DNA from: Bacteroidales bacterium
Lineage (GTDB): Bacteria; Bacteroidota; Bacteroidia; Bacteroidales; WCHB1-69
DNA: 64,000 nt
Assembly (NCBI GenBank): GCA_017615795.1
Contig: JAFZZK010000045.1
Coordinates: forward strand, 1-64,000
Reading direction: 5' to 3'
The notes beneath the pieces were generated by a model. That model did no database searches and was not told the DNA's origin. It saw only the letters and a program-made list of their open reading frames with translations. Positions 5,716 through 56,513 of the stretch are shown here, piece after piece (position 1 is the first letter of the stretch; the number at the start of each line of letters is the position of its first letter). A program made the position numbers and the translations under genes.

Positions 5716-5887
5716 CCACCCCACTTCCCCTGCATTAATTCGACAAGTTTCAAACAACCATCTTTTTCACCGAAGAAAAAGAGGATTTGTTCGCTTTCAA
5801 TATTCTTGTAGCATTTTTTCAGTTTTCCGCATCTATTCATTGAATAGTCATCCAAAACAGAAAAAAAACGTTTTTGCATTTTTATTA

Positions 5888-5916
5888 TTGAACATTCATG
5901 TTTTTTATTAAATTTG
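5888..5916 (+). promoter_or_regulatory. Promoter of the type B T9SS cargo gene
   Basis: TAAATTTG at 5909-5916 with TTG at 5888-5890, 18 bp apart. The upstream in-frame TTG at 5914 lies inside this box, which rules it out as a start codon. The rest of the 228-bp gap after merR is AT-rich and shows only a weak CTTTTTC/GAAAAAG hairpin near 5762-5781. Confidence 0.75.
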
Positions 5917-5943
5917 CAACGGATTTTGTCAACACATTTTACC

Positions 5944-8778
5944 ATGAAAAAAATAACTTTAATCCTGCTGCTGTTAGGGGGCCTGTTGCCCTGTCTGCTG
6001 GCGCAATCCACCATATTGATGGGCTCTCAAAGCACCGTCAGCAGCTGCGGTTTCATCATCTATGATGATGGTGGACAAAGTGGCGACTATGCCGCGAATG
6101 TGGATCAGACGCTGACCATCTATTCCAACGACCCGAGCAACGGTTGTGTGATGGTGGAGATACAGAACCTCGACATCGACCCCTCGGACACGTTGATTTT
6201 CTATGATGGTGTGGGCACTGGCGGCACGGAGCTGCACCGCATCAACAATAGCAACTACGACCCGACGGCAACATTCCGCTATGCGGCCACCATCCAAAAC
6301 AGCACGGGCGCGCTTACAGTACGCTTTATTTCCGACGCGACGGGCAGCGGTGCGGGATTCACTATTTTCGCCTCCTGCATGGCGCCTTGCCAGCGCGTGG
6401 AAATACATCTTGACACGCTCCAATCCTCTCACGTACCGCATATCGACCCCGACGACGGCTACTATTACGTTGACGTGTGCCCCTACGACACCGTCCATTT
6501 CGTGGCATACTGCGACTATCCCGACAACAACTTCAGCTACCCTCAGAGCCACGCGCTCACCACTTTCAAGTGGGACTTCGATCTGTCGGAGGTGGACTCG
6601 TTGGGACTCACTACCGTGGACCACTACTTCACGCCCGGTCGTGGCTACGATGTGGCCATCTCTGCCGTTGATTCGGCGCACTGTCCTTCCCTCATCCCTG
6701 TGACGTTCCGCGTGCGAACCTCCAAGAACCCCATACGCGACGTGGCACAGCTGCCACCCATCTGCGCCGGCCAACAACTCGACCTCAGCGTCGGCTATGA
6801 CCACCTTTCCAGCGTCCAACTCGACTCCATCGGCAGTGAGCAAATCACCTCCTTAGGCGTCACAGACACGGTGTTCCTGCCCGACGGCATCAACTGTCCG
6901 CCCTATGGCTACTACTACCGTTCATACGTCAACTTCACCTCTTTCGCACCCAACGCCACCATCGCCTCCGCCAACGATATCCTGTATGTGCGCCTTAAGA
7001 TCGAGCACTCCGCCATCGAGGACATCCGCATCAAACTATACTGTCCCAACAACAGTTCCGTGCGCATCGTGCCCGACTACCAGAACGACGGCTGGGGCGG
7101 CGTGACCCACAACTTCCGCACCAACCTCGGACTGGCCAACCGCCTGCAGGAGGTCGCCACCTGCGATGCCTCGCAGAACCCCATGGGTGTCGCTTGGAAC
7201 TACGTCTGGTCCAACAACACAACGCTCGGCTACCAATATGCAAACTCGCCATACGGCTATTGTTTCGAGCCCCAAAACGTGCATGTGACAGCCAACCCCT
7301 ACTGGGACAACAGCAATGGCCTTGGCCTGTACTCATACGTCATCGACTCCACCGACGTGGCCAACATGACGCAAGTCTATCACCCCAGCCAAAACTTCAG
7401 CAACCTCGTGGGATGCCCGCTCAACGGGTCCTGGTTTATCGAGGTGCAAGACCTGTGGACCAACGACAACGGATACATCCATGAGTGGGAGATGGCCCTT
7501 GACCCCCATCTGCTGCCCCAAAACTGGTCGTACACCGTCAACGTGGACACCACCTACCTCGTCGGACCTGGCTCCAATGGCATGTACGTGATCCCCGACA
7601 CGGCAGGCACTCTCTATTACACGGCATACGTCATTGACGAATACGGCTGCTCCTACGACACCATCGTGCCCCTCACGGTGGTTCCCTCCCCGCAACCCGA
7701 CCTTGGAGAGGATTTCAGCCTGTGCCATGGTGATATGGTCACATTGGATGTGGACTACAACGCCCCAGGCACAAGCTATTTGTGGAGCACTGGTGATGAA
7801 ACCGAGAGTATCTTAGTCCTGTCTGACGGCACCTATTATGTAAACATCGTCACCACCGATGACTCGGCCGGACTCTCATGCGCCGGCAGCGACACCATCC
7901 ACATCTCTTCGCTGCCCAATCCCAATGCGGACTTTGCCCTCTCCGACACCTCCGGCTGCGCTCCATTGGTGATACGCACCACCAACCTGACCTCGCCTGC
8001 CGACTTGGGCTGTGAATACTCCTGGATGATTTTGCGTGAAAACGGCACATTAGCGTACGCCTCGCTACTGGAATCGCCCGCTTTTGAAATCGACGAGCCA
8101 GGCACCTACTCTGTCGCACTTTGGGCCACCTCCGCCGATGGATGCCGCGACTCCATCTTCAAATGGAATTGCATTCATGTACACCCGCAACCCATCGCAG
8201 AATTCACTGCCACCCCGGAAGTTTCCCTGTTTCAGGAGTCCAATGGCACCATTGAATTTCAAAGCTATACCGACCAAAACATTCTCGAAAACGCCGGTAC
8301 CACACTTCTATGGGACTTCGGTGACGGAACCTCAGACTCCACAGAGATATCCCCCACGCACACGTACACATCGTGGGGTGACTACAACGTAACGCTCTCC
8401 ATCAACAGCGGATTCGGCTGCACCAGTGAAATCACGCACACCGTAATCATTGAAGACGACCTCGTTTTCCCGAATGTCATCACCCCGAACGGCGATAACT
8501 TGAACGATGTCTTCGCCATCGAAAACCTCAACACCAATATCAACATGGAAGACCCCGACCGATATCGTAACAACGAGTTGTTTGTCTACGACCGATGGGG
8601 GAAGTTGGTCTATAAGGCCAAGAACTATGATACGGTGTCCAAAGACGGGCAAATTATCAGAGGATCACAATGCTTCGATGCCTCCGGCTTGTCCGATGGC
8701 GTTTACTACTATTCTTTCCATTACAAAGGGAAAGCCAAGGTGGTGGAGTACAACGGATCCTTGACCGTCGTCCGTTAG
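5944..8778 (+). CDS. Secreted CUB / P-domain / PKD protein with type B T9SS signal
   Basis: A 944-residue surface protein. In order: signal peptide (1-21), CUB-like domain (about 33-145, with DTLIFYDGVG and a closing FTIFASC), a PKD-like domain (about 165-260), a proprotein-convertase P-domain-like region (about 324-522, ending in GSWFIEVQD...HEWEM), further PKD/Ig-like repeats including the hallmark LLWDFGDGTSDST, and from about 841 a gliding-motility-associated C-terminal (CHU_C) domain starting FPNVITPNGDNLNDVF. The last domain is a type B T9SS sorting signal, so the protein should cross the outer membrane through the T9SS whose components lie at 24-33 kb. There is no catalytic domain; adhesion or ligand binding is my inference. 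It ends directly against the convergent glycosyltransferase. Confidence 0.85.
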   Translation: MKKITLILLLLGGLLPCLLAQSTILMGSQSTVSSCGFIIYDDGGQSGDYAANVDQTLTIYSNDPSNGCVMVEIQNLDIDPSDTLIFYDGVGTGGTELHRINNSNYDPTATFRYAATIQNSTGALTVRFISDATGSGAGFTIFASCMAPCQRVEIHLDTLQSSHVPHIDPDDGYYYVDVCPYDTVHFVAYCDYPDNNFSYPQSHALTTFKWDFDLSEVDSLGLTTVDHYFTPGRGYDVAISAVDSAHCPSLIPVTFRVRTSKNPIRDVAQLPPICAGQQLDLSVGYDHLSSVQLDSIGSEQITSLGVTDTVFLPDGINCPPYGYYYRSYVNFTSFAPNATIASANDILYVRLKIEHSAIEDIRIKLYCPNNSSVRIVPDYQNDGWGGVTHNFRTNLGLANRLQEVATCDASQNPMGVAWNYVWSNNTTLGYQYANSPYGYCFEPQNVHVTANPYWDNSNGLGLYSYVIDSTDVANMTQVYHPSQNFSNLVGCPLNGSWFIEVQDLWTNDNGYIHEWEMALDPHLLPQNWSYTVNVDTTYLVGPGSNGMYVIPDTAGTLYYTAYVIDEYGCSYDTIVPLTVVPSPQPDLGEDFSLCHGDMVTLDVDYNAPGTSYLWSTGDETESILVLSDGTYYVNIVTTDDSAGLSCAGSDTIHISSLPNPNADFALSDTSGCAPLVIRTTNLTSPADLGCEYSWMILRENGTLAYASLLESPAFEIDEPGTYSVALWATSADGCRDSIFKWNCIHVHPQPIAEFTATPEVSLFQESNGTIEFQSYTDQNILENAGTTLLWDFGDGTSDSTEISPTHTYTSWGDYNVTLSINSGFGCTSEITHTVIIEDDLVFPNVITPNGDNLNDVFAIENLNTNINMEDPDRYRNNELFVYDRWGKLVYKAKNYDTVSKDGQIIRGSQCFDASGLSDGVYYYSFHYKGKAKVVEYNGSLTVVR

Positions 8779-17258: not shown

Positions 17259-18002
17259 TTATTTGTTGGTGAGTGCATGGAAGATTTCCTCCATGCCGAG
17301 GGCGTTGAGTTCGTCGGCATGTTTGATGCCAAGCTTCACGGCAATGTCAGGCAGGTCGGCAACGGGTGTGTCGACGACAAGTTTGCCGTGGTTGATGATG
17401 ACAACGTGGTCACACATGGCCTGAACCTCCTGCATAATGTGCGTGGAGAGGAGGACGGTGCGGTCTTTGCCGTATTCGCGGATGAGACTACGGATTTCGA
17501 TGAGCTGGTTGGGGTCAAGGCCTGTGGTCGGTTCGTCGAGAATGAGCACTTCCGGTTTGTGGATGAGGGCTTGGGCAATGCCCACGCGCTGCTTGTAGCC
17601 ACGAGAAAGTGCGCCAATTTTCTTATGCTGTTCGGGACCAAGGCCGGTATTCTCGATGACTTCGGCCACGCTGCCCTTGACATCTTTGAGGTGATGAACG
17701 CCGGCGATGAACTGGAGAAACTCCCGCACGTACATGTCATAATAGAGCGGGTTAGCTTCGGAAAGATAGCCTATCCGCTTCCGCAACTCCAAGGAGTCGT
17801 TCCAAATGTCCAGTCCGCAGACAGTGACGTCGCCTGAGGTGGGCGGGATGAGGCAGGTGATAATCTTCATCATGGTGGTCTTGCCTGCGCCGTTGGGGCC
17901 CAAGAAGCCGACGATCTCGCCCTTCTTGGCCTCAAAGCTCACATCATCCAGCGCACGCTGCGTGTCAAAAACTTTGGTGACGTTCTTTACGACAATTGAC
18001 AT
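17259..18002 (-). CDS. gldA: ABC transporter ATPase, GldA type
   Basis: A 247-residue ATPase with Walker A GPNGAGKTT, signature LSRGYKQRVGIAQAL, Walker B VLILDEPTTGLDP and the H-loop STHIMQE. It is closest to GldA, the ATPase that works with the membrane proteins GldF and GldG, which are encoded here at 43.5-46.0 kb. This split arrangement (gldA away from gldFG) is also seen in Flavobacterium. GldA/F/G are needed for gliding in some species, yet they also occur in non-gliding Bacteroidetes, so motility should not be assumed. It leads the block running to anmK. Confidence 0.85.
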   Translation of the reverse strand: MSIVVKNVTKVFDTQRALDDVSFEAKKGEIVGFLGPNGAGKTTMMKIITCLIPPTSGDVTVCGLDIWNDSLELRKRIGYLSEANPLYYDMYVREFLQFIAGVHHLKDVKGSVAEVIENTGLGPEQHKKIGALSRGYKQRVGIAQALIHKPEVLILDEPTTGLDPNQLIEIRSLIREYGKDRTVLLSTHIMQEVQAMCDHVVIINHGKLVVDTPVADLPDIAVKLGIKHADELNALGMEEIFHALTNK

Positions 18003-18026
18003 ACTATAGCCATTTTAATGAGGCCG

Positions 18027-18056
18027 CAAAGATACAAAAAATACCATTAGAGCCAA
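18027..18056 (-). promoter_or_regulatory. Promoter of the gldA-anmK block
   Basis: On the minus strand TATCTTTG (18034-18027) with TTG (18056-18054), 19 bp apart, and 24 bp upstream of the gldA ATG. Confidence 0.7.
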
Positions 18057-18164: not shown

Positions 18165-19268
18165 ATGGATAACGTGAAAAACACGGGGAACATGGAAGCC
18201 ACGAGGCATGCCGGCAATACGGTAAAATCCGTCTTGCAAGTAGTGCTCTTCGTGGGATTGGGTATTCTGTTCATCTGGCTCTCTGTGCGCTCGCTCACCA
18301 AGGAGGATGTGCAAATGATTTTCGATGCCATCAAGCTGGTAAACAATCCATTGGGTTGGAGCATGTTGGGGGTTTCCGCCTTGTTCGCTATTTTGGCGGA
18401 CGTGGCGCGCGCTGTGCGCAGCAAAATCCTGTTAGTGCCCATCGGGTACAATGTGAGGTTCCCCATGGCCTTCTATTCCGTGATGGTCTGCTATCTGGCC
18501 AATCTGGCCGTACCCCGCTTGGGTGAGATTTTGCGCTGTTCATTCTTGCAACGGTTCGAAAATGTGCCCTTTCAGAAGACCTTGGGCACTGTGCTCACGG
18601 AACGTGCCGTAGACCTGCTTTGCTGGCTCTTCATGCTGCTCATCGCCATCGGCATGAACATGGAGCTCCTCAACAATCTTGTCGTGGACCATGCCAACAA
18701 CCTGACACTTCGCGCCTTGTTGGAGCAAAAGGGGCTGTCCCTTCTCGGCAACTATTTCATCTACATTCTGATTGCCGTCATCATTGCATCATATATTGTC
18801 TTTCGCCTGACCCGCAAATGGTGGATGCGCGTGCCCTTCTTCGTAAAGGTGCGCGAGTTCCTTGTCGGCATCTGGCGCGGCTTCATCTCCATCAAGGATC
18901 TGCCCCACCCGTGGCGATACATATTCTGGACTCTCCTCATGTGGGTGTTCTATTTCTTAGGCACCTATTCCTGCTTCCTCGCCTTCCCATTCTTGCAGCA
19001 CATCGGCCCGGGCGCTGCCTACTCCGTGCTCATCTTCAGCACGATCGCCTTCATGGTCTCCCAGGGCGGTCTCGGCTCCTATCCGCTGATTGTCGCGGGT
19101 ATTGTCTTCATGTACGGCGTACCTTACACACAAGGCTTGGCCGGCGGTTGGGTTGGCTGGGTACTCCAAACCGCCATCGCCCTTGTGCTCGGCTTGGCAT
19201 CCCTCGTCCTGGCTTCCTTCCACAAAAAGAAAAGAGACAAAACCATCCCTGACACTGCCGAAAGATGA
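18165..19268 (+). CDS. Flippase-like (LPG synthase TM region / YbhN) membrane protein
   Basis: A 367-residue polytopic membrane protein with about eight hydrophobic helices, of the UPF0104/YbhN family (lysylphosphatidylglycerol synthase membrane domain). Family blocks include [36 protein letters not shown] and [13 protein letters not shown]. The catalytic aminoacyl-transferase half of true LPG synthases is absent. Family members are thought to move lipid-linked substrates across the inner membrane, but the cargo here is unknown. Its stop overlaps the start of rfaE2 by 4 bp, which hints at a role in glycan or lipid A supply. Confidence 0.8.
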
Positions 19269-24558: not shown

Positions 24559-26061
24559 TTATCTTCCTTGGGTTTGGGATCCGACGCGCGCCATAGCGCA
24601 ACGGAATCCGATATAGTCCGTGGCTTCGTCTTCGTCAAGATAACGACGGGAGGCCGGAGCGGAGAAATAGGAGATATCGCGCCAGGAACCGCCTTTATAG
24701 ACGCGGGCGTGGTCACCTACGAGGGAATAGCTGTAGGCAGCGTTGAGTTCCTTGCGGTACATGATGTCAGTTGCATCGGAAGCATCAGAGGACTTGACGG
24801 CGTTTTTCCAATCGTCCATATTCTGCAGAGACTGCCAGTCACCATCGGCGTAGTTGCGGTTGTCAGCAGCACGATAGTTACGACGTCTGTCGTTCTTGAA
24901 GTCGGAGACGGGGACCATGGGGATTCTACCCACGCTGTCACGTTCTGCAACCGTTCCATCTTCCAACAATTTCTTTGTTTCAAAGTAGTTACCACGGAAC
25001 GGGTTGTACTCTGTCACATCATCGTGGGATGCCTGACGATAGACGTCCATAACCCACTCGGAGACGTTACCAGCCATTTGATAAAGGCCGTAGTCGTTGG
25101 GCCAGTCGGAGCGGACTTCCTTGGTCTTGAAGCCGGCGTCGTTGAGGGCGCTTGCGACACCCATGAGGTCGCCACGGCCACGACGGTTGTTCGTCATAAT
25201 GTCGCCGTAGTATTTTTTCTCTTCAGTACGGATTTGCTGACCGTTCCAAGGATAGATTTTACGTTCGAGGACACGTTCATTGAGGGTGTTGCCGATAAGG
25301 CCGTATGCGGCGTATTCCCATTCAGCCTCGGTCGGCAGGCGGTACTTGGGCAGCAGGATACCGTCTTCCATTTTGACATTACGATATTCGCCGGAGGAGA
25401 TGTATTTGAGACGTTTCTCACCTTCAGCCTCGTAAGTCTCATAAGTCAGATAGGCATCGGTGTTGAAGTAACCCTCAGCTGTCGGGGTCTCGGCAAACTC
25501 GATATAGCCACGGTCCACGAGGATTTGCTCGTTGACGCGGTCAGTACGCCATGCGGCATAGTTGGTGGCCTGCAGCCAGTTGACGCCCACGACGGGATAG
25601 TGCCTGTAAGCGGGGTGACGGAAGTAGTACTCCACATCCGGTTCATTATAGCTGAGGCGGTCGCGCCACACGTTCTCATCAGGGAGGGCGTTGTCATAGA
25701 CCACTTTCAGGTCTTGGGGCACGAAGACTCTTTCCAGCCAATAGAGATATTCAAGATAGTCGACATTTGCCACCTCGCATTCGTCCATATAGAAAGAGGC
25801 CACAGACACGCGACGGGGTATGTTGTTCCAATCTTTCATCACATCTTCTTCCATGGCGCCCATCACGAAAGTACCACCTTCGATGAAGACCAATCCTGGA
25901 CCTGTGGCTTGTTCCTCGAAAGGAGCCACTTCAAAGCCGCCATTCTTGGCGTCATTGTATTTCCATCCCGTGGTGGGGGATGTTTCTTTTTTGCACGATG
26001 ACATCATGGCCATGAGACCGATGATAAGCAAAAGGTTTGTGAATCTTGTTATCTTATTCAT
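24559..26061 (-). CDS. gldJ: T9SS/gliding lipoprotein GldJ
   Basis: A 500-residue outer-membrane-associated lipoprotein (lipobox MSSC, Cys23) with a formylglycine-enzyme-like (SUMF1) fold. Segments TGWKYNDAKNGGFEV, GPGLVFIEGGTFVMGA, FYMDECEVANVDYLEYLYWL, YRLPTEAEWEYAAYGLIG and RVYKGGSWRDISYFSAPASR match GldJ as I know it from Flavobacterium rather than GldK. GldJ stabilises GldK, part of the T9SS ring; the family is not an enzyme. It is downstream of porP in the same operon and divergent from porU-porV, echoing the gldJ-porU-porV clustering of Flavobacterium. Confidence 0.88.
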   Translation of the reverse strand: MNKITRFTNLLLIIGLMAMMSSCKKETSPTTGWKYNDAKNGGFEVAPFEEQATGPGLVFIEGGTFVMGAMEEDVMKDWNNIPRRVSVASFYMDECEVANVDYLEYLYWLERVFVPQDLKVVYDNALPDENVWRDRLSYNEPDVEYYFRHPAYRHYPVVGVNWLQATNYAAWRTDRVNEQILVDRGYIEFAETPTAEGYFNTDAYLTYETYEAEGEKRLKYISSGEYRNVKMEDGILLPKYRLPTEAEWEYAAYGLIGNTLNERVLERKIYPWNGQQIRTEEKKYYGDIMTNNRRGRGDLMGVASALNDAGFKTKEVRSDWPNDYGLYQMAGNVSEWVMDVYRQASHDDVTEYNPFRGNYFETKKLLEDGTVAERDSVGRIPMVPVSDFKNDRRRNYRAADNRNYADGDWQSLQNMDDWKNAVKSSDASDATDIMYRKELNAAYSYSLVGDHARVYKGGSWRDISYFSAPASRRYLDEDEATDYIGFRCAMARVGSQTQGR

Positions 26062-26109
26062 TATGAAAGTTGTTTAATATCGTTTGAAAAGAGTTGTTTG
26101 ATTTTACGA

Positions 26110-27231
26110 TTAGAATGACGGGCACTTGAGATCCTTGATGGCCTTACGTTTCTTGGGGCAAGGCAGGAGCAGTTGGAGGGAGACCTCGTGGCTGCCACCG
26201 GTAGTGGCGCTGGCCAGCCTGCTGACAGTCAAATCATAGGAATACGCAATCTTGAACATGTTGTATTCAAGTCCGAACATGAAGATAATAGCATCGGTGT
26301 TAAACGCTTTGGAGATCTGCATTTGCGGGATACCGAGGGTGTCTCTCACGATGGTGCCATTTTCGTCACGCACAAAATCGTTGTACTTGTATATAAGTCC
26401 ATGACGGAACCACACACCGAGGGTGAAGGGATAGAATTTCATATAGAGACCCTCGTTGAAATAATTGAAGCCCAATTGGTGTTCGAAGATGAAGTTGGGG
26501 CTGATGGAGATATCGCCGAAGGAGGTCTCTTTCTTGCTCTTGCGCTTGAGGTCGAAGTTTGCACCCACGTGGGCGGTGAATTTCAACATGTCATAGAACT
26601 TGCCGTCGGCGTTGCCGGTGAGGAAGCTGTAGGGGGTTTTTGAAGATGAAAGGCTAAGGGTTGCGATGTGCTTGGCGGCGAAGCCAAAATACACATGCGG
26701 GGTATAGCCCAAGAATCCAAAAGAAAAGTCAAGCGTGTTAATCTGGTTGATATAGTTCCCGATATTCTCGTTGGTCGTATACACGAAACCGTATCTTGGG
26801 TCGATCATGTCGCCGAAAGTGAGCTTGGTCCAGTCGAGCGATTTGTTTTGGAATGCGGCTTGCAGGGCGAAACGCATGTTGAATTTCTTGGACACTTTGA
26901 CCTTGAAGGAATACATTACGCTTGCATTATAGGTGTTGAGAATGCCGCCTTCGCCTGCACGGTCACCCCAGAATTGCACACCAATACCGCCATAGATTTT
27001 ATCAAAATGCTCATCGTAGGAAGCGGCGTAAGTCAGAAATGTGCCCGGCATTGACGGCCATTGGTCGCGGAAATTGAAAGCGAGACGGGGACATATATTC
27101 GTGCCGGCCATGGCTGGGTTGAGGAAGAGCGGATTGGCGTAGAACTGCGAAAACATGGGGTCTTGCGCCTGAACCCGCGCTGTGGACAATCCCAGCAGGG
27201 CAACCAATAGTATGAGGATTCTTTTCTGCAT
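26110..27231 (-). CDS. porP: Type IX secretion protein PorP/SprF family
   Basis: A 373-residue outer-membrane protein with signal peptide (about 1-22) and the family opening DPMFSQFYANPLFLNPAMAG, followed by alternating strands of a predicted beta barrel. PorP/SprF proteins anchor or guide T9SS cargo at the cell surface, and type B cargo genes often have a dedicated SprF partner. This copy is not beside a cargo gene but beside gldJ and opposite porU, so it may be the core PorP. It leads a two-gene operon, with gldJ 48 bp downstream. Confidence 0.9.
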   Translation of the reverse strand: MQKRILILLVALLGLSTARVQAQDPMFSQFYANPLFLNPAMAGTNICPRLAFNFRDQWPSMPGTFLTYAASYDEHFDKIYGGIGVQFWGDRAGEGGILNTYNASVMYSFKVKVSKKFNMRFALQAAFQNKSLDWTKLTFGDMIDPRYGFVYTTNENIGNYINQINTLDFSFGFLGYTPHVYFGFAAKHIATLSLSSSKTPYSFLTGNADGKFYDMLKFTAHVGANFDLKRKSKKETSFGDISISPNFIFEHQLGFNYFNEGLYMKFYPFTLGVWFRHGLIYKYNDFVRDENGTIVRDTLGIPQMQISKAFNTDAIIFMFGLEYNMFKIAYSYDLTVSRLASATTGGSHEVSLQLLLPCPKKRKAIKDLKCPSF

Positions 27232-27254
27232 AGCGTACTGTGTTTTATAGCGGG

Positions 27255-27286
27255 CAAAAATACAAAAATATTTATTATGTTTGCAA
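27255..27286. promoter_or_regulatory. Divergent promoter region porP / porU
   Basis: For porP (minus) two adjacent TATTTTTG boxes lie at 27262-27255 and 27270-27263; the first has TTG at 27286-27284, 21 bp upstream. For porU (plus) the best candidate is TATGTTTG at 27276-27283, about 94 bp before the ATG, so the two promoters interlock. Confidence 0.6.
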
Positions 27287-27376
27287 CCCTAATTTTTATA
27301 ATTACGAGCACGGCAATAATCACAACGGAAAAACGTTTGGAAAATTGCACACGTGCATTTTTTAAAACAACGACAA

Positions 27377-30300
27377 ATGATGAATAAATCTTGGGCATAC
27401 TGCTGCATTTTTTTTGCACTCATTCTACAAGTATCTCATATTCAAGGACAAAGAATTGAAAAAAAAGTGGTTCTTTCTTGGAGCGACAATATTGTCAGAA
27501 CCATTTCCGAAGACGAGACACGCGAATTCCTCCATTTTGACGGGGCTGTCTATCCACTCTCCTTCCCCACTTTGCCCTCCTATTACGAACAGATTCCGAT
27601 CGCACAATTTTACGACAAGTATGCCATCACGGTCTCCAACGTCGAGTATGCGACAATGAGCGCGAGCGACGCGGCGCTCGTGCCCGCCAACTATCACAAC
27701 CGCACCCTTGACGTGCAGGCCCACTCCGCACACGCGCGCACATCCACATACCTGATGCTGTCGTTTATCCCTATTGTGGAGGTCGGCGACGGCCAATACC
27801 GGAGGGTCGTTTCGGCGACCATAACGTTGGAAGGCAAAACAGCCGCAAGCGGAATATCCTCTCACCCCGCCAGCAAAAACCACGCCACGCAGTCAGTGCT
27901 CGCATCCGGGCAATGGTACAATTTTTCCGTAGAGAAAACAGGCATCTACAAAGTCACTTACGAAGACCTTGTCGCGATGGGCATGCCCACGCCCATCTCA
28001 TCGTCGCAGATAGCGTTGTTCGGCAACGGCGGCAAGATGCTGCCGGAGGCTAACGCCGCCCCGCGCGCTGACGACCTGTTGGAACTGCCCATCACCATCG
28101 TGGACGGCAACGACGGCACGATGAACGCAGGCGACTACTTCATCTTTTACGGTCAGTCGCCGCACTCCTGGACCTATCAACCCGACTTGCACCAGTTTTC
28201 CCACACCACCAACCTATACTCTGATGTCTCATGGTATTTTGTCACTTCCACGCCGGGCGTAGGAACAAAAAAACGAGTGGAAAACAGCAACGATGGGGCC
28301 TTGACCCCCACAGTCACTGTGAACGGATACACGCACTACGATTTTTACGAGACAGACAGTCACAATTTCGGCGAATCGGGCAAAGAGTGGTTTGGAGATG
28401 TTTTCGATGCCACCACGGAGCGCAGCTACACATTTTCCGTGCCGGGGTATGATGCCGTGCCGTCACGGATTTCCGTGGCCGGAGCCTGTGCCTCGGGTGC
28501 ACATTCCTACATGAGCATAACCGTCAACGGCACCAACGTGGGGAGTCTGAACTTCCCCTCCATCAGCGGCAACTTCATTGCCACCATGAGCCGTAATGAC
28601 TTCACCTTCACGCCAAGCTCCTCAACCCTGAACGTAACCTTGAGCTACAGCAAGCCGACCACCTCCTCCGCAGCCTACCTCGACTGGATTGAGATTGAGG
28701 TCCCCTGCCGGCTGACGATGCATTCGGCACAGTTCCCATTCTGCAACACCAGCACCGTGGGTGCCGGCAGTGTCACGCGATTCAACATCTCCAATGCGAA
28801 CGGAAACACTGTGGTTTGGGATGTTACGGACCCTTCGCACACCACGCGCCAGGTGCTTACGCAAGACAACGGCCAGTACGGCTTCACCGTCCGCACAGAC
28901 TCCCTTCGCCACTTCTATGCCTTCAACGGCACATCCTACCTCAGCGTGACACGCGGCGGTGCCGTCGAGAACCAGAACCTGCATGCCACTGGCAATGTAG
29001 ACATGGTGATTGTCACCCATTCCAGATTTCTCGCACAAGCCAACGAATTAGCCAAGTTCCGCCGCGAAAACGACGGCCTGTCCGTCCAGGTGGCCACTAT
29101 CCAGCAGGTATACAACGAATTTTCCAGCGGCTCGCAGGACCCCATCGCCATCCGCGACTATATGAAGATGATCTACGACCGCAGCAACAAACAATACCCC
29201 AAGTACTTACTGTTGGTAGGGCGGCCATGTTACGACTATCGGGGCAGAATCAGCGGTACTGAGATTCTCGTGCCCAACTATCAAGGACACACCGACGGAA
29301 GCACCATTGCCGAGATCAATTTCTATGCCAATGACGACACTTTCGGACTGCTCGACGATGAGGAGGGAGGCGCCGCCCACGGACTTTACGACATCTCCAT
29401 AGGCCGCTTCCCGTGCACCACGGTCTCACAAGCCCGAACCGCCGTGGAAAAGAGCATCAACTACACACAGCACAAGAGTCTGGTGAGTGAAAACTCCACG
29501 CAGATTTCCAATTTCGGGGACTGGCGCAACATGATGGCTTTCGTGGCCGATGACGAGGAATACAACGACTTTATTTCCAATGCGGACAACTTCACGAATA
29601 TTGTGAAAAACGCCAACCCCAACATCAACTTCGACAAGATCTATCTGGATGCCTTCCAGCAAATTTCCAATGCGGGCGGGCAACGTTACCCCGACGTCAC
29701 GGCAGCCATCAACAACCGCATGAACCGCGGTTCGTTGTTTTTCACCTACATCGGGCACAGCGGCAAAGACGGCTGGGCTGCCGAGCGCATTATCGAGAAC
29801 TCCGACATCAACCGCTGGAACAACAAATACAACTTGCCGATGATGTTGACGTTGTCGTGTACATTCGGTTTCTACGACCGGCCTGTGCTTTCGCCGGCAG
29901 ACTTGGTGCTGTTCAGCGGGATCGGTGGCGTGAGCGCCATCATCACGGCCACACGCGATGCCTGGTCGTCGGCCAACAACGCCTACGGACGCCACGTCTT
30001 CAACACGATGTTCTCCACCACGGACGGACACTACCCAACCATCGGCGACATCGAGCGGCGCGCCAAAAACACATACGGCGGCAACTCCACCTCGTTGGCC
30101 ATGTTCGTGCTTCTGGGCGACCCCTCCATGCCACTGGCCATTCCCAAATATCGCATCGTCACCGACTCCATCAACCACAAAGCGGTCGGAGAGCGACAAG
30201 ACACCATACGCGCGCTCTCCCTGATGAGCGTCAGCGGACGTGTCGTCGACGAGAACGACCAGACCCTCACAAATTTCAACGGCTCGGTGTACCCTTCCGT

Positions 30301-31225
30301 CTACGACAAGGCCGTCACCGTGACGACACTCTCCAACGACCCCAGCAGTGCGCCATTCGAGTTCCTGCAACAAAAAAACATCCTCTTCAAGGGCAACAAC
30401 AGTGTGAAAGACGGTCATTTCAGCTTCTCCTTTTACGTGCCCAAAGACATTGACTACGACTACGGCACGGGCAAGATCAGCTACTATGCCTGCAGCCAGA
30501 ACCAAGATGGTGCGGGCGCATTCACGGAATTCATCATCGGCGGCACCGACACCAACGGCGTGGACGACAAGGAGGGACCCACCATCGATCTCTATCTCAA
30601 CGACGAACAGTTTGTCAACGGCGGCATCGTAAACCCCGACCCCACCCTCATTGTCAAGGTGCATGACAACTTCGGCATCAACACCACAGGCAACGGCATC
30701 GGGCACGACCTCACGGCCATCCTCGACAACGCCTCCGAATCGCAAATCGTGCTCAACGACTATTTCCAGAACGACAAAGACAGCTCCAATTCCGGCACGG
30801 CACGCTATAGTCTCAACGACCTTGCTGTCGGCAAGCACTCCCTGCTGGTCCGCGCCTGGGACATCAACAACAACCCCTCGGAAAGCACCCTCGAGTTCGA
30901 GGTTGTTTCTGACACCAAGCTGACACTCAGCCATGTGCTCAACTACCCCAACCCCTTCACCACGCACACCGACTTCTTCTTCGAGCACAACCAAAATGGA
31001 GGGCTCTTCGACATCCAGGTCCAGATTTACACCATCTCGGGCAAGCTCGTCAAAACCATCACGACTTCACAGTACCTGGAGGGCAACCGCAGCATGGCCA
31101 TCCCATGGGACGGTCTCGACGATTATGGCGACAAGATCGGCAAGGGCGTCTACATGTATAAATTGCGTGTCCGCAACAGCGAAAATGCGACAGCCGAAGT
31201 CGTGGAAAAACTGGTGATATTGTAA
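27377..31225 (+). CDS. porU: T9SS sortase PorU
   Basis: A 1282-residue gingipain-like cysteine peptidase (family C25) that removes the C-terminal signal from T9SS cargo at the cell surface and attaches it to A-LPS. A signal peptide is followed by a beta-rich N-terminal region, the C25 domain from about 541 (DMVIVTHSRFLAQANELAKF), and a C-terminal FlgD-like Ig domain (YPNPFTTHTDFFFEH). The catalytic pair is visible: about His794 in YIGHSGKDGW and about Cys828 in LSCTFGFYDRP. Two ATGs (27377, 27380) are possible. porV follows after 126 bp. Confidence 0.95.
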   Translation: MMNKSWAYCCIFFALILQVSHIQGQRIEKKVVLSWSDNIVRTISEDETREFLHFDGAVYPLSFPTLPSYYEQIPIAQFYDKYAITVSNVEYATMSASDAALVPANYHNRTLDVQAHSAHARTSTYLMLSFIPIVEVGDGQYRRVVSATITLEGKTAASGISSHPASKNHATQSVLASGQWYNFSVEKTGIYKVTYEDLVAMGMPTPISSSQIALFGNGGKMLPEANAAPRADDLLELPITIVDGNDGTMNAGDYFIFYGQSPHSWTYQPDLHQFSHTTNLYSDVSWYFVTSTPGVGTKKRVENSNDGALTPTVTVNGYTHYDFYETDSHNFGESGKEWFGDVFDATTERSYTFSVPGYDAVPSRISVAGACASGAHSYMSITVNGTNVGSLNFPSISGNFIATMSRNDFTFTPSSSTLNVTLSYSKPTTSSAAYLDWIEIEVPCRLTMHSAQFPFCNTSTVGAGSVTRFNISNANGNTVVWDVTDPSHTTRQVLTQDNGQYGFTVRTDSLRHFYAFNGTSYLSVTRGGAVENQNLHATGNVDMVIVTHSRFLAQANELAKFRRENDGLSVQVATIQQVYNEFSSGSQDPIAIRDYMKMIYDRSNKQYPKYLLLVGRPCYDYRGRISGTEILVPNYQGHTDGSTIAEINFYANDDTFGLLDDEEGGAAHGLYDISIGRFPCTTVSQARTAVEKSINYTQHKSLVSENSTQISNFGDWRNMMAFVADDEEYNDFISNADNFTNIVKNANPNINFDKIYLDAFQQISNAGGQRYPDVTAAINNRMNRGSLFFTYIGHSGKDGWAAERIIENSDINRWNNKYNLPMMLTLSCTFGFYDRPVLSPADLVLFSGIGGVSAIITATRDAWSSANNAYGRHVFNTMFSTTDGHYPTIGDIERRAKNTYGGNSTSLAMFVLLGDPSMPLAIPKYRIVTDSINHKAVGERQDTIRALSLMSVSGRVVDENDQTLTNFNGSVYPSVYDKAVTVTTLSNDPSSAPFEFLQQKNILFKGNNSVKDGHFSFSFYVPKDIDYDYGTGKISYYACSQNQDGAGAFTEFIIGGTDTNGVDDKEGPTIDLYLNDEQFVNGGIVNPDPTLIVKVHDNFGINTTGNGIGHDLTAILDNASESQIVLNDYFQNDKDSSNSGTARYSLNDLAVGKHSLLVRAWDINNNPSESTLEFEVVSDTKLTLSHVLNYPNPFTTHTDFFFEHNQNGGLFDIQVQIYTISGKLVKTITTSQYLEGNRSMAIPWDGLDDYGDKIGKGVYMYKLRVRNSENATAEVVEKLVIL

Positions 31226-54965: not shown

Positions 54966-54988
54966 TGTAACACTTTTTGGAAAAAGTG
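54966..54988 (+). promoter_or_regulatory. Palindrome and possible ECF-type promoter before the sigma gene
   Basis: TGTAAC (54966-54971), an ECF-like -35 with the AAC core, leads into the perfect palindrome CACTTTTTGGAAAAAGTG (54971-54988), 15 bp before the sigma-factor ATG. No TAnnTTTG box is present, unlike at most other leaders. Self-activation by the sigma factor is my inference. Confidence 0.45.
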
Positions 54989-55003
54989 CATCTATAGGTT
55001 ACC

Positions 55004-55558
55004 ATGCACGGTGACAATGAAACGAAAAAGCTCATCGAGGGATGCCTGAACAATGACAGGCAGTCGCAGCGCGCGCTATACGACAAATATGCGCCGCAGA
55101 TGTACCCCGTATGCATCCGCTATGCGGGCAACGAGACCGAAGCAGAGGACATCCTCGTGGAAGCTTTTCTCAACGTTTTCACCCACCTGCAGGAGCTGAA
55201 GAAGCACAGTTCATTGAAGAGTTGGATCTATGCCACTGTCGTGCGGACATCACTCATGCATCTCCGCGCGAAACGACAGCATCCCTTTACGGAGTCTTTC
55301 GACGATATAGGAGAGAGCTACTACTGCCCCGAACCCGACGGGGAAGCGGCAATCGTCGCGAAGATGGAAGCCCAGCAAGCGATGAAAATCATCGCCCGAT
55401 TGCCGGAAACGCAACGCACCATCTTCAACATGTACGCTATCGACGGCTTCAGCTATAAGGAGATCGCGGAGACTCTGGAACTGAACGAAAGCTCCGTCAG
55501 GGTGTATTATCAACGCGCAAGGCACTGGATTCTATCTGTAATGAACAAACAGAAATAA
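55004..55558 (+). CDS. ECF-family RNA polymerase sigma-70 factor
   Basis: A 184-residue sigma factor with only regions 2 and 4. Region 2 (about 18-90) includes LYDKYAPQMYPVCIRYAGN and EAEDILVEAFLNVF; region 4 (about 125-180) has LPETQRTIFNMYAIDGFSYK and EIAETLELNESSVRVYYQRA. The length and layout are those of Bacteroidetes ECF factors controlled by membrane anti-sigma proteins. The gene downstream, after 7 bp, encodes a membrane protein that looks like such a regulator but ends in a T9SS type B domain. The regulon is unknown; the pairing suggests surface or secretion genes. Confidence 0.92.
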   Translation: MHGDNETKKLIEGCLNNDRQSQRALYDKYAPQMYPVCIRYAGNETEAEDILVEAFLNVFTHLQELKKHSSLKSWIYATVVRTSLMHLRAKRQHPFTESFDDIGESYYCPEPDGEAAIVAKMEAQQAMKIIARLPETQRTIFNMYAIDGFSYKEIAETLELNESSVRVYYQRARHWILSVMNKQK

Positions 55559-55565
55559 CTGGGAA

Positions 55566-56513
55566 ATGAAAGAGATCAAGGACATATTGGAAAACTATAC
55601 GCAACAGCCGCCCGCCAGCGGCTGGGAACGGCTCAGCAGCCAGTTGGACGCGCTCGCCCCCATGGGTGGCGAGTCTGCAGCGACGTCTTCCACAGGTGCA
55701 TCGGCAGCCGGCACAGCAGCCAAGGGAGCGGCTTTCTCCGTCTCCAAGGCACTGCTCGTCGCAGCCGCAGGCCTGCTGACCACCGCCGCTGTAGTCACTG
55801 CCGTAATAGTCCATAATGAAAAATCCAATATCCAAAGCACGGAATTGCCCAATGGACAAGCCGCAGACAACTCCATGATCGTTTTGACGGACAGCACCAT
55901 CACAGCCACACCTGAGGAGGAAAAAACCATGGTCGCCAAAGATGTTGCCCCAACCGAAAACCCCACATCCAATCTTCCATCCGACAACACGCCTGTTGCT
56001 GCCCCAGCCACGACACCGCTTGTTGACAACACTCCTTCAACACCCGCTGCCATCCCGACCACCAGCTCGCCCAAGGTGTCCGCATCGCCGGCCAAAACGC
56101 CCACCCCCACCCCTTCGCTCCAGCGTCCGAATGTCACCCCCACCCTCTCACACGTCGCCCTTCCCCAACAATCCACCATACTCCACCAACAACAGGAAGA
56201 CCCTGTGGTCCAGAGCATGGATCCTGACGAGATGGACTGGAGTGCACCCGTGAAAATCGAGATTCCAAACGTCTTCACCCCCAACGGTGACGGATTCAAC
56301 GACCAATTTGTCATCCAAGGCATCGAAAATTGTGACAAGCACGAACTTATTGTCCGCAACCGCGGCGGCAACGTCGTCTACCGAAGCAATTCGTACGAAA
56401 ACAACTGGAACGGCGACAACTGTCCCGACGGGACCTACACCTACCAGTTCCTGTACAGCAGCCATGGCATCTCACAGGAGATGAAAGGCAATGTGATGAT
56501 AATTCGGAAATAG
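55566..56513 (+). CDS. Membrane protein: anti-sigma-like N-terminus, type B T9SS (CHU_C) C-terminus
   Basis: A 315-residue protein with no signal peptide. Residues 1-60 (ILENYTQQPPASGWERLSSQ) resemble the cytoplasmic part of Bacteroidetes anti-sigma proteins. One transmembrane helix follows (about 60-82, ALLVAAAGLLTTAAVVTAVI), then a P/T/S-rich spacer (about 90-225), and from about 229 a gliding-motility-associated C-terminal domain (EIPNVFTPNGDGFNDQFVI to SHGISQEMKGNVMIIRK). Topology would put the T9SS-type domain in the periplasm. Coupled to the ECF gene by a 7-bp gap, it is probably its regulator, with the C-terminal domain as sensor or T9SS contact. Direct T9SS export is unlikely unless it is cleaved from the membrane. 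Confidence 0.75.
   Translation: MKEIKDILENYTQQPPASGWERLSSQLDALAPMGGESAATSSTGASAAGTAAKGAAFSVSKALLVAAAGLLTTAAVVTAVIVHNEKSNIQSTELPNGQAADNSMIVLTDSTITATPEEEKTMVAKDVAPTENPTSNLPSDNTPVAAPATTPLVDNTPSTPAAIPTTSSPKVSASPAKTPTPTPSLQRPNVTPTLSHVALPQQSTILHQQQEDPVVQSMDPDEMDWSAPVKIEIPNVFTPNGDGFNDQFVIQGIENCDKHELIVRNRGGNVVYRSNSYENNWNGDNCPDGTYTYQFLYSSHGISQEMKGNVMIIRK

Follow-up and report, generated by a model that had tools for sequence, protein, structure and literature searches.

A predicted membrane anti-σ factor ending in a type IX secretion domain is paired with an ECF σ factor whose promoter-like motif precedes cargo operons in Bacteroidales

In a stretch of 64,000 nucleotides of Bacteroidales DNA (hereafter the window), an ECF σ factor gene is followed by a gene encoding a predicted membrane anti-σ factor whose C-terminus is a type B C-terminal domain (CTD) of the type IX secretion system (T9SS). 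The promoter-like motif located upstream of the σ gene is also found before operons encoding T9SS cargo, and the predicted regulon defined by these sites is the new result reported here. Because the same motif precedes both the pair and tagged cargo genes, the pair probably serves to adjust how much cargo is made to how the secretion machine is faring. We propose, with a probability of about 0.5, that it is a feedback switch reporting free secretion capacity to the cargo-making σ factor, and thus a T9SS counterpart of FlgM/σ28.

A preliminary description of this DNA, made from its letters alone, had recognized an ECF σ factor adjoining a membrane protein with a T9SS type B domain, and had described the latter as carrying one helix, a P/T/S linker and a CHU_C domain but no signal peptide. 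Open reading frames, domain searches, hydropathy and composition agreed with this anatomy, whose elements are as follows.

55004..55558, + strand: ECF σ factor gene, 184 aa (PF04542 and PF08281 above cut-offs)
55566..56513, + strand: partner gene, predicted membrane anti-σ factor with a type B T9SS CTD, 315 aa (open reading frame, domains, recurrence)
55566..55661, + strand: predicted σ-binding segment of the partner, aa 1–32, two helices (conservation, fold)
55755..55811, + strand: predicted transmembrane helix, aa 64–82 (hydropathy)
55812..56255, + strand: P/T/S-rich linker, about 150 aa (composition, length comparison)
56256..56501, + strand: CHU_C, the type B T9SS CTD, aa 231–312 (PF13585, TIGR04131)

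The σ protein scored 44 bits against PF04542 (cut-off 24) and 62.8 bits against PF08281 (cut-off 25.7), and, being about 180 aa long with σ70 regions 2 and 4, it has the composition of an ECF σ factor. Among the NCBIfam matches listed, no named equivalog was reached, the closest being of the PG0214 type (103.6, cut-off 130). Seven bases separate the σ reading frame from that of the partner, both on the + strand. The topology of the partner was read from hydropathy, which revealed a single hydrophobic segment (aa 64–82, Kyte–Doolittle mean 2.38). Judging from sequence and hydropathy, this is also the first such stretch of the protein, there being none resembling a signal peptide at the extreme N-terminus, and the partner therefore lacks the Sec signal peptide of ordinary T9SS cargo. 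The linker contains 15% P, 14% T and 11% S, and in 80 relatives its length was 144 ± 12 aa while its sequence was weakly conserved. The CTD is complete, matching PF13585 (CHU_C) over profile positions 1–86 of 86 with 72.3 bits (cut-off 27) and TIGR04131 with 45.5 bits (cut-off 35), and it ranks top among the 17 CHU_C matches of its own genome, a draft of 2.04 Mb that is 87% complete. CHU_C was the sole Pfam match of the partner at E ≤ 1; neither a known anti-σ domain (class I) nor FecR was found at that threshold.

The mean identity of relatives to the window protein was 0.67 in the CTD, 0.51 in the N-terminus and 0.23 in the linker, making the CTD the best conserved part. In the structural model of the partner, aa 31–201 had pLDDT values below 50, and the CTD had values of 80–94. 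No other folded part is predicted beyond the membrane, which makes the CTD the natural sensor. A PDB sequence search with the anti-σ factor returned no credible relative (three matches, E of 0.29–0.39), and Foldseek with its model (mean pLDDT 53.8) returned no match at E ≤ 0.001; among the top rows, all short of that threshold, PorZ ranked first and the CTD of a T9SS substrate, 8glk_D, fourth.

The segment ahead of the helix has the properties expected of a σ-binding region. P15, W20 and L27 are invariant across 54 partner sequences, and modelled helices span aa 2–10 and 17–30. The pattern W..[ILMVF]...L occurred within the first 70 residues of 68 of 76 σ-adjacent proteins, compared to 9 of 336 background proteins, whereas a stricter profile of the N-terminus (E < 0.01) matched 47 of the 48 CHU_C partners but only 7 of the 28 partners lacking CHU_C. 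Since the pattern is kept beside the σ factor whatever the C-terminus, the N-terminus appears to travel with the σ factor while diverging in sequence, and the CTD seems to have been added in some members of the family. In a paired fold of the σ and anti-σ factors of a relative (L251), modelled without a σ-alone control, the anti-σ segment packed on the σ factor (pLDDT 82–97, pTM 0.82), and the σ domains were closed as in SigW–RsiW and CnrH–CnrY. The two-helix segment is thus predicted to clamp the σ factor. CnrY, a class II anti-σ factor, likewise uses two helices to bind σ4 and σ2 (PMC7406223). The two helices, the confident paired fold and the CnrH-like closed σ factor suggest a possible likeness to this class, with no sequence relation shown, and the sensor side of CnrY is unrelated. 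The retention of the pattern regardless of the C-terminus, together with the confident docking in the model, argues for the anti-σ role that had been attributed to this N-terminus, and the docking predicted for the L251 pair goes against the lack of contact with the σ factor that had been named as grounds for rejecting it.

The preliminary description had also made its proposal depend on recurrence of the pair in related genomes, and this was borne out. Searches with the partner yielded 72 homologues at a threshold of E ≤ 0.001, and 54 remained when this was tightened to E ≤ 1e-22. When the σ factor was searched in 60 related genomes and the best 30 loci, including the window's own, were read, the same arrangement of σ factor and CHU_C partner was present in 28. 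One of the two exceptions (L044) is truncated by a contig end, and the other (L045), from another family, encodes a comparable N-terminus and helix with an unlike C-terminus. A second scan used the σ alignment over named genomes and retained the best 80 of 220 relatives, of which 4 had no readable open reading frame; among the 76 loci with a downstream frame, 48 encoded a CHU_C partner, a count that may be low as the start-codon rule can hide partners, and the other 28 encoded different C-termini, so that this part varies beside more distant σ relatives. The nearest named records among the matches listed were Bacteroidales metagenome-assembled genomes, UBA1176 being first (95% σ identity), and, going by their titles, many of the listed Bacteroidales draft genomes with relatives come from herbivore guts. 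In one genome, G020, the anti-σ factor (L043 / L257) lacks the N-terminal TPNGDG part of CHU_C but keeps the rest and still matches the domain, which may reflect either a true deletion or an assembly error. Seven loci (L045, L265, L267, L272, L273, L283 and L287) encode a similar N-terminus beside relatives of the σ factor, followed by longer C-termini that read as ending like outer-membrane β-barrels. This may be read as a modular anti-σ family with exchangeable outer domains.

We analyzed the region upstream of the σ gene, which contains a promoter-like motif.

54966..54993, + strand: promoter-like motif TGTAAC-N17-CATCT, ending 10 bases before the σ start

A relaxed ECF-type motif, TGT[AG][AG][CT]-N16-18-C[GA][AT]C, was present upstream in 25 of 29 σ loci (0.21 in shuffles), 22 of the 29 having the TGTAAC form. 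In 22 of the 25 loci the motif ended 8–11 bases before the longest-frame σ start; provided that it acts as the promoter and that the start codon is correctly assigned, the σ mRNA would have almost no leader. Relatives have the form TGTAAC-N17-CGAC and this species has TGTARC-N17-CATCT, the −10 part of the σ motif being CATC in the own genome (G000), G015 and G027. In the second set (best 80 of 220 relatives), the motif preceded 37 of 48 σ genes with a CHU_C partner and 0 of 28 without, a distribution that also tracks phylogeny. We predict that the σ factor regulates its own gene through the site at 54966..54993. A reading as pure autoregulation was dropped: a strict search of the own genome (TGTAAC-N16-18-C[AG][AT]CTA) had returned the σ factor's own site alone, until a −35 variant, TGTAGC, surfaced when the promoters of CHU_C genes were read directly. 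The pattern TGTAAC-N15-18-C[AG][AT]C gave 37 sites, compared to 119 for its control. The spacer of the σ promoter (54972–54989) is a perfect inverted repeat, CACTTTTT-GG-AAAAAGTG, which is present in G015 and absent in G027.

The motif form of the relatives, TGTAAC-N16-GCGAC, occurred 104 times in 25 of 40 congeneric genomes. We fetched 88 of these sites, leaving out 15 that precede σ genes and G027:C31, which lies at the edge of its contig; one of the 88 (L155) proved to precede another σ operon, hence 87 non-σ sites. Six of the 88 had no readable open reading frame and several operons were cut by contig ends, all of which were scored as misses. Controls were the 58 reversed-pattern sites listed, from 13 genomes. 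A type A or B CTD was encoded by the first downstream gene at 41 of 88 real and 3 of 58 reversed sites (Fisher, 1e-8), and within the operon (up to 4 genes) at 58 of 88 and 4 of 58 sites, respectively (Fisher, 2e-13), although these p-values are overstated because sites of relatives are not independent. With L155 excluded, 57 of the 87 non-σ sites preceded CTD operons. Same-strand coding frames of at least 150 aa contained 33 of the 58 control sites, including all four control matches, but only 9 of the 88 real sites; outside such frames, CTD operons followed 53 of 79 real and 0 of 25 reversed sites. The baseline among other genes of the same regions was 28 of 336. The type A model used in these counts was built from the YPNP C-termini of targets and background and is not independent of them for that reason; the official CTD models were applied to the own-genome targets and to genome counts.

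The 82 first downstream genes fell into 25 clusters, the largest with 15, 13 and 9 members. In the 15-member cluster the first gene encodes a secreted product some 150 aa long, and in most cases the next gene encodes a type B protein. This secreted family (L319:245-703; first genes of L117, L129, L161 and others) leads many motif operons and had no match in Pfam or NCBIfam. At 30 of the 87 sites no recognized CTD was encoded downstream; these included six occurrences of a 157-aa family that reads as a lipoprotein. As the motif resembles ECF promoters in general, another σ factor could read some of the sites, and the CTD of the anti-σ factor was no closer to the CTDs of the targets than to other type B CTDs. 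By their location, the sites outline a predicted regulon that includes T9SS cargo operons.

A second copy of the motif, with a predicted target, lies within the window itself.

5807..5834, + strand: second motif copy, TGTAGC-N17-CATCT (pattern search)
5914..8778, + strand: predicted target, 954-aa cargo with PKD, P_proprotein and a type B CTD (CHU_C, 64 bits; domain searches)

This cargo likely starts at the ATG at 5944, ahead of a signal-peptide-like stretch. In the own genome, TGTARC-N17-CATCT occurred six times, compared to five for the reversed control, so the weight lies in where the sites are and not in their number. One site precedes the σ gene, and four non-σ sites lead to operons encoding type A or B domains: besides the window cargo, the site on contig C28 is followed by a 153-aa secreted protein and then two type B proteins, that on C35 by a Fib_succ protein of 492 aa whose type A domain is internal (in a region with long open frames on both strands), and that on C50 by an fn3 protein of 1831 aa that bears a type A CTD. 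The C42 site lies within a long same-strand coding frame, as do the C36 site of G015 and the C57 site of G027. The three own type B targets scored 29–33 against TIGR04131, below its cut-off of 35, and well above the cut-off of PF13585; the internal type A match of L318 scored 22.8 with Pfam (below the cut-off of 27) and 28.1 with NCBIfam (above the cut-off of 23). The search for the CATCT form yielded 20 sites, 3 of them σ promoters, and 15 sites were read over longer stretches, 5 of those being truncated where the stretch or contig stopped; the sites on contigs C57 and C59 of G027 were read in short loci only. A CATCT-type −10 element is common to the σ and cargo promoters of G000, G015 and G027, which are this species and two close relatives, and the GCGAC form was found there 0, 0 and 1 times, respectively. 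This shared change of the −10 element would be best explained by a regulator co-evolving with its sites.

The own genome encodes SprA and three PorP/SprF proteins, and contains 54 type A and 17 type B CTD matches at E ≤ 0.001. Some T9SS genes are located in the window.

24559-31225: GldJ-like (− strand), PorP/SprF family (− strand) and PorU sortase (+ strand) genes (family searches)

The GldJ-like protein scored just below its cut-off (454, cut-off 458). The motif was absent at PorU, PorP and GldJ of the window, and the predicted control therefore appears to concern a small subset of cargo and not the machine. The preliminary description had suggested that transcription is coupled to T9SS activity; that link gains support from the motif before cargo operons but did not extend to the machinery genes of the window. 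The predicted targets seen were cargo genes, other exported proteins and the σ factor itself. In Porphyromonas gingivalis, a CTD protein, PorA, also acts on a T9SS-linked ECF σ factor, SigP; PorA, which is located at the surface and has both a signal sequence and a FimH-like domain, acts via the two-component system PorXY, and SigP drives T9SS components (PMC7712824), which was not the pattern found within the window. Unlike in that circuit, a single protein here combines the tag with the predicted inhibitor, and cargo genes are the predicted targets. The same source reports porA homologues in Porphyromonas only. An ECF/anti-σ pair of Flavobacterium psychrophilum (SM6) is likewise tied to T9SS genes, but the targets that its report lists belong to the T9SS components, for example GldN and PorU (PMC9723704).

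How could a tagged anti-σ factor respond to secretion? T9SS substrates leave SprA on a carrier protein, pulled with energy from a proton-driven motor (PMC10994853); type B CTDs exit on PorP/SprF-type shuttles, and secretion by the SprB CTD requires each of five conserved motifs (PMC12618676). The predicted helix (aa 64–82) would anchor the partner in the inner membrane, and a flexible tether of about 145 residues would present the tag to the periplasm, from where the CTD might reach the T9SS translocon, or a PorP/SprF-type shuttle, as a pseudo-cargo unable to leave. When cargo is scarce, the tag would be engaged and pulled, the membrane-bound part would be destabilized or cut, and the freed σ factor would transcribe its own gene, that of its inhibitor and cargo genes. 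When the translocon is full of cargo, the tag would be left alone and the σ factor held again, competition with cargo limiting the engagement of the tag. We infer in which direction the signal runs, how the σ factor is released and whether a protease takes part. In its most specific form, this proposal gives the T9SS its own FlgM, a CTD threaded into the proton-driven translocon on which the pull of an idle machine would release the σ factor, apparently in two parallel copies per genome; we regard this form as tentative and somewhat doubtful. In the flagellar type III system, the anti-σ factor FlgM also carries the signal of the system that exports the late products of its σ factor, whose activity is set by the state of secretion, but FlgM is itself secreted and σ28 is not an ECF σ factor (PMC13344023). 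Here, by contrast, an ECF σ factor, a predicted membrane anchor and the T9SS are involved, with a putative engagement of the tag. One feature of a FlgM-type circuit, an anti-σ factor bearing the signal of a system whose substrates share the promoter of the σ factor, is found here by prediction, from the CTD and the motif.

Other readings of the tag were weighed. In FecR-type relays, the anti-σ factor sits in the inner membrane, and its C-terminus extends into the periplasm, where it may touch a partner in the outer membrane. By analogy, the CTD could be a static ligand on an outer-membrane barrel of the PorP/SprF type, passing on a surface signal with no transport and no sensing of load. Type B CTDs do bind PorP/SprF proteins (PMC9143113), three of which are encoded in the own genome, and a linker of 144 ± 12 aa could span the periplasm; however, no dedicated shuttle gene adjoins the pair, the partner differs from FecR in having no match to it at E ≤ 1, and such a relay by itself leaves the T9SS cargo targets unexplained, so we consider it unlikely. 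It is less probable still that the CTD is a borrowed periplasmic Ig-like domain sensing something unrelated, with cargo targeted merely because surface proteins are abundant. The presence of a domain is no proof of its use and CTD genes are common in this genome, yet the CTD is complete and is the best conserved part of the partner, and both the baseline of other genes and the reversed-pattern sites (28/336 and 4/58) fall far below the real sites.

A sensor of opposite sign would fit the anatomy equally well. ECF/anti-σ pairs often serve envelope stress, and unassembled porins trigger the cutting of RseA; unsecreted cargo CTDs could similarly trigger cutting of the anti-σ factor, raising σ activity when secretion fails. 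The targets seen were cargo, though, and not T9SS machinery or chaperones, and extra cargo would worsen a jam, which makes this reading improbable. Finally, the partner has an intact CTD and might be ordinary T9SS cargo with an unusually long signal peptide, placed beside a σ gene by accident, but 63 residues precede its hydrophobic stretch and its N-terminus docks on the σ factor in the paired fold, and we dropped this very remote explanation because that N-terminus is conserved beside the σ factor (68/76, compared to 9/336 in the background).

The proposed feedback switch also resembles the RsgI/SigI systems of Clostridium thermocellum, in which a membrane anti-σ factor with an N-terminal σ-binding part, one helix and an outer sensor controls secreted proteins. 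RsgI reads extracellular carbohydrates in a Gram-positive bacterium (PMC12203970), whereas a secretion tag forms the outer domain in the present case, and the partner showed no ligand-binding domain. We found no description of an anti-σ factor with a T9SS CTD in the openly licensed literature of PubMed Central. We know of no established answer to how Bacteroidota match T9SS cargo supply to the capacity of the machine. The published link through PorA, PorXY and SigP is indirect, whereas here the sensor, the predicted inhibitor and the switch share one operon. If our reading is right, no earlier transcription switch would have been gated by engagement of the T9SS itself, and Bacteroidota would be metering secretion by force or occupancy. 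The pair would then also be of use as a reporter of such engagement and as an analogue of FlgM that can be put to the test in a secretion system unrelated to the flagellar one.

Other σ and anti-σ genes were seen in the same genome. On contig C7 (L054), a second ECF σ gene (18732-19226, − strand) is followed after 15 bp by a gene for a 299-aa partner with a predicted helix, a linker and a type B CTD (CHU_C at 17814-18029, − strand). By coordinates, similar neighbours occurred in six of the seven other genomes scanned (G012, G014, G015, G020, G021 and G027). One CHU_C gene (L213) is preceded by a site similar to the putative promoter of this second σ gene, TGCAAC...CGTCT; this was the one plausible cargo site for its motif in the own genome, too few for a regulon to be claimed. 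In two further loci, L050 (contig C50) and L053 (contig C28), the ECF σ reading frame continues into an anti-σ-like segment, a hydrophobic helix and a P/T-rich stretch, and both may be read as natural σ/anti-σ fusions. Each overlaps by 4 bases a gene whose product starts with a signal-peptide-like sequence.
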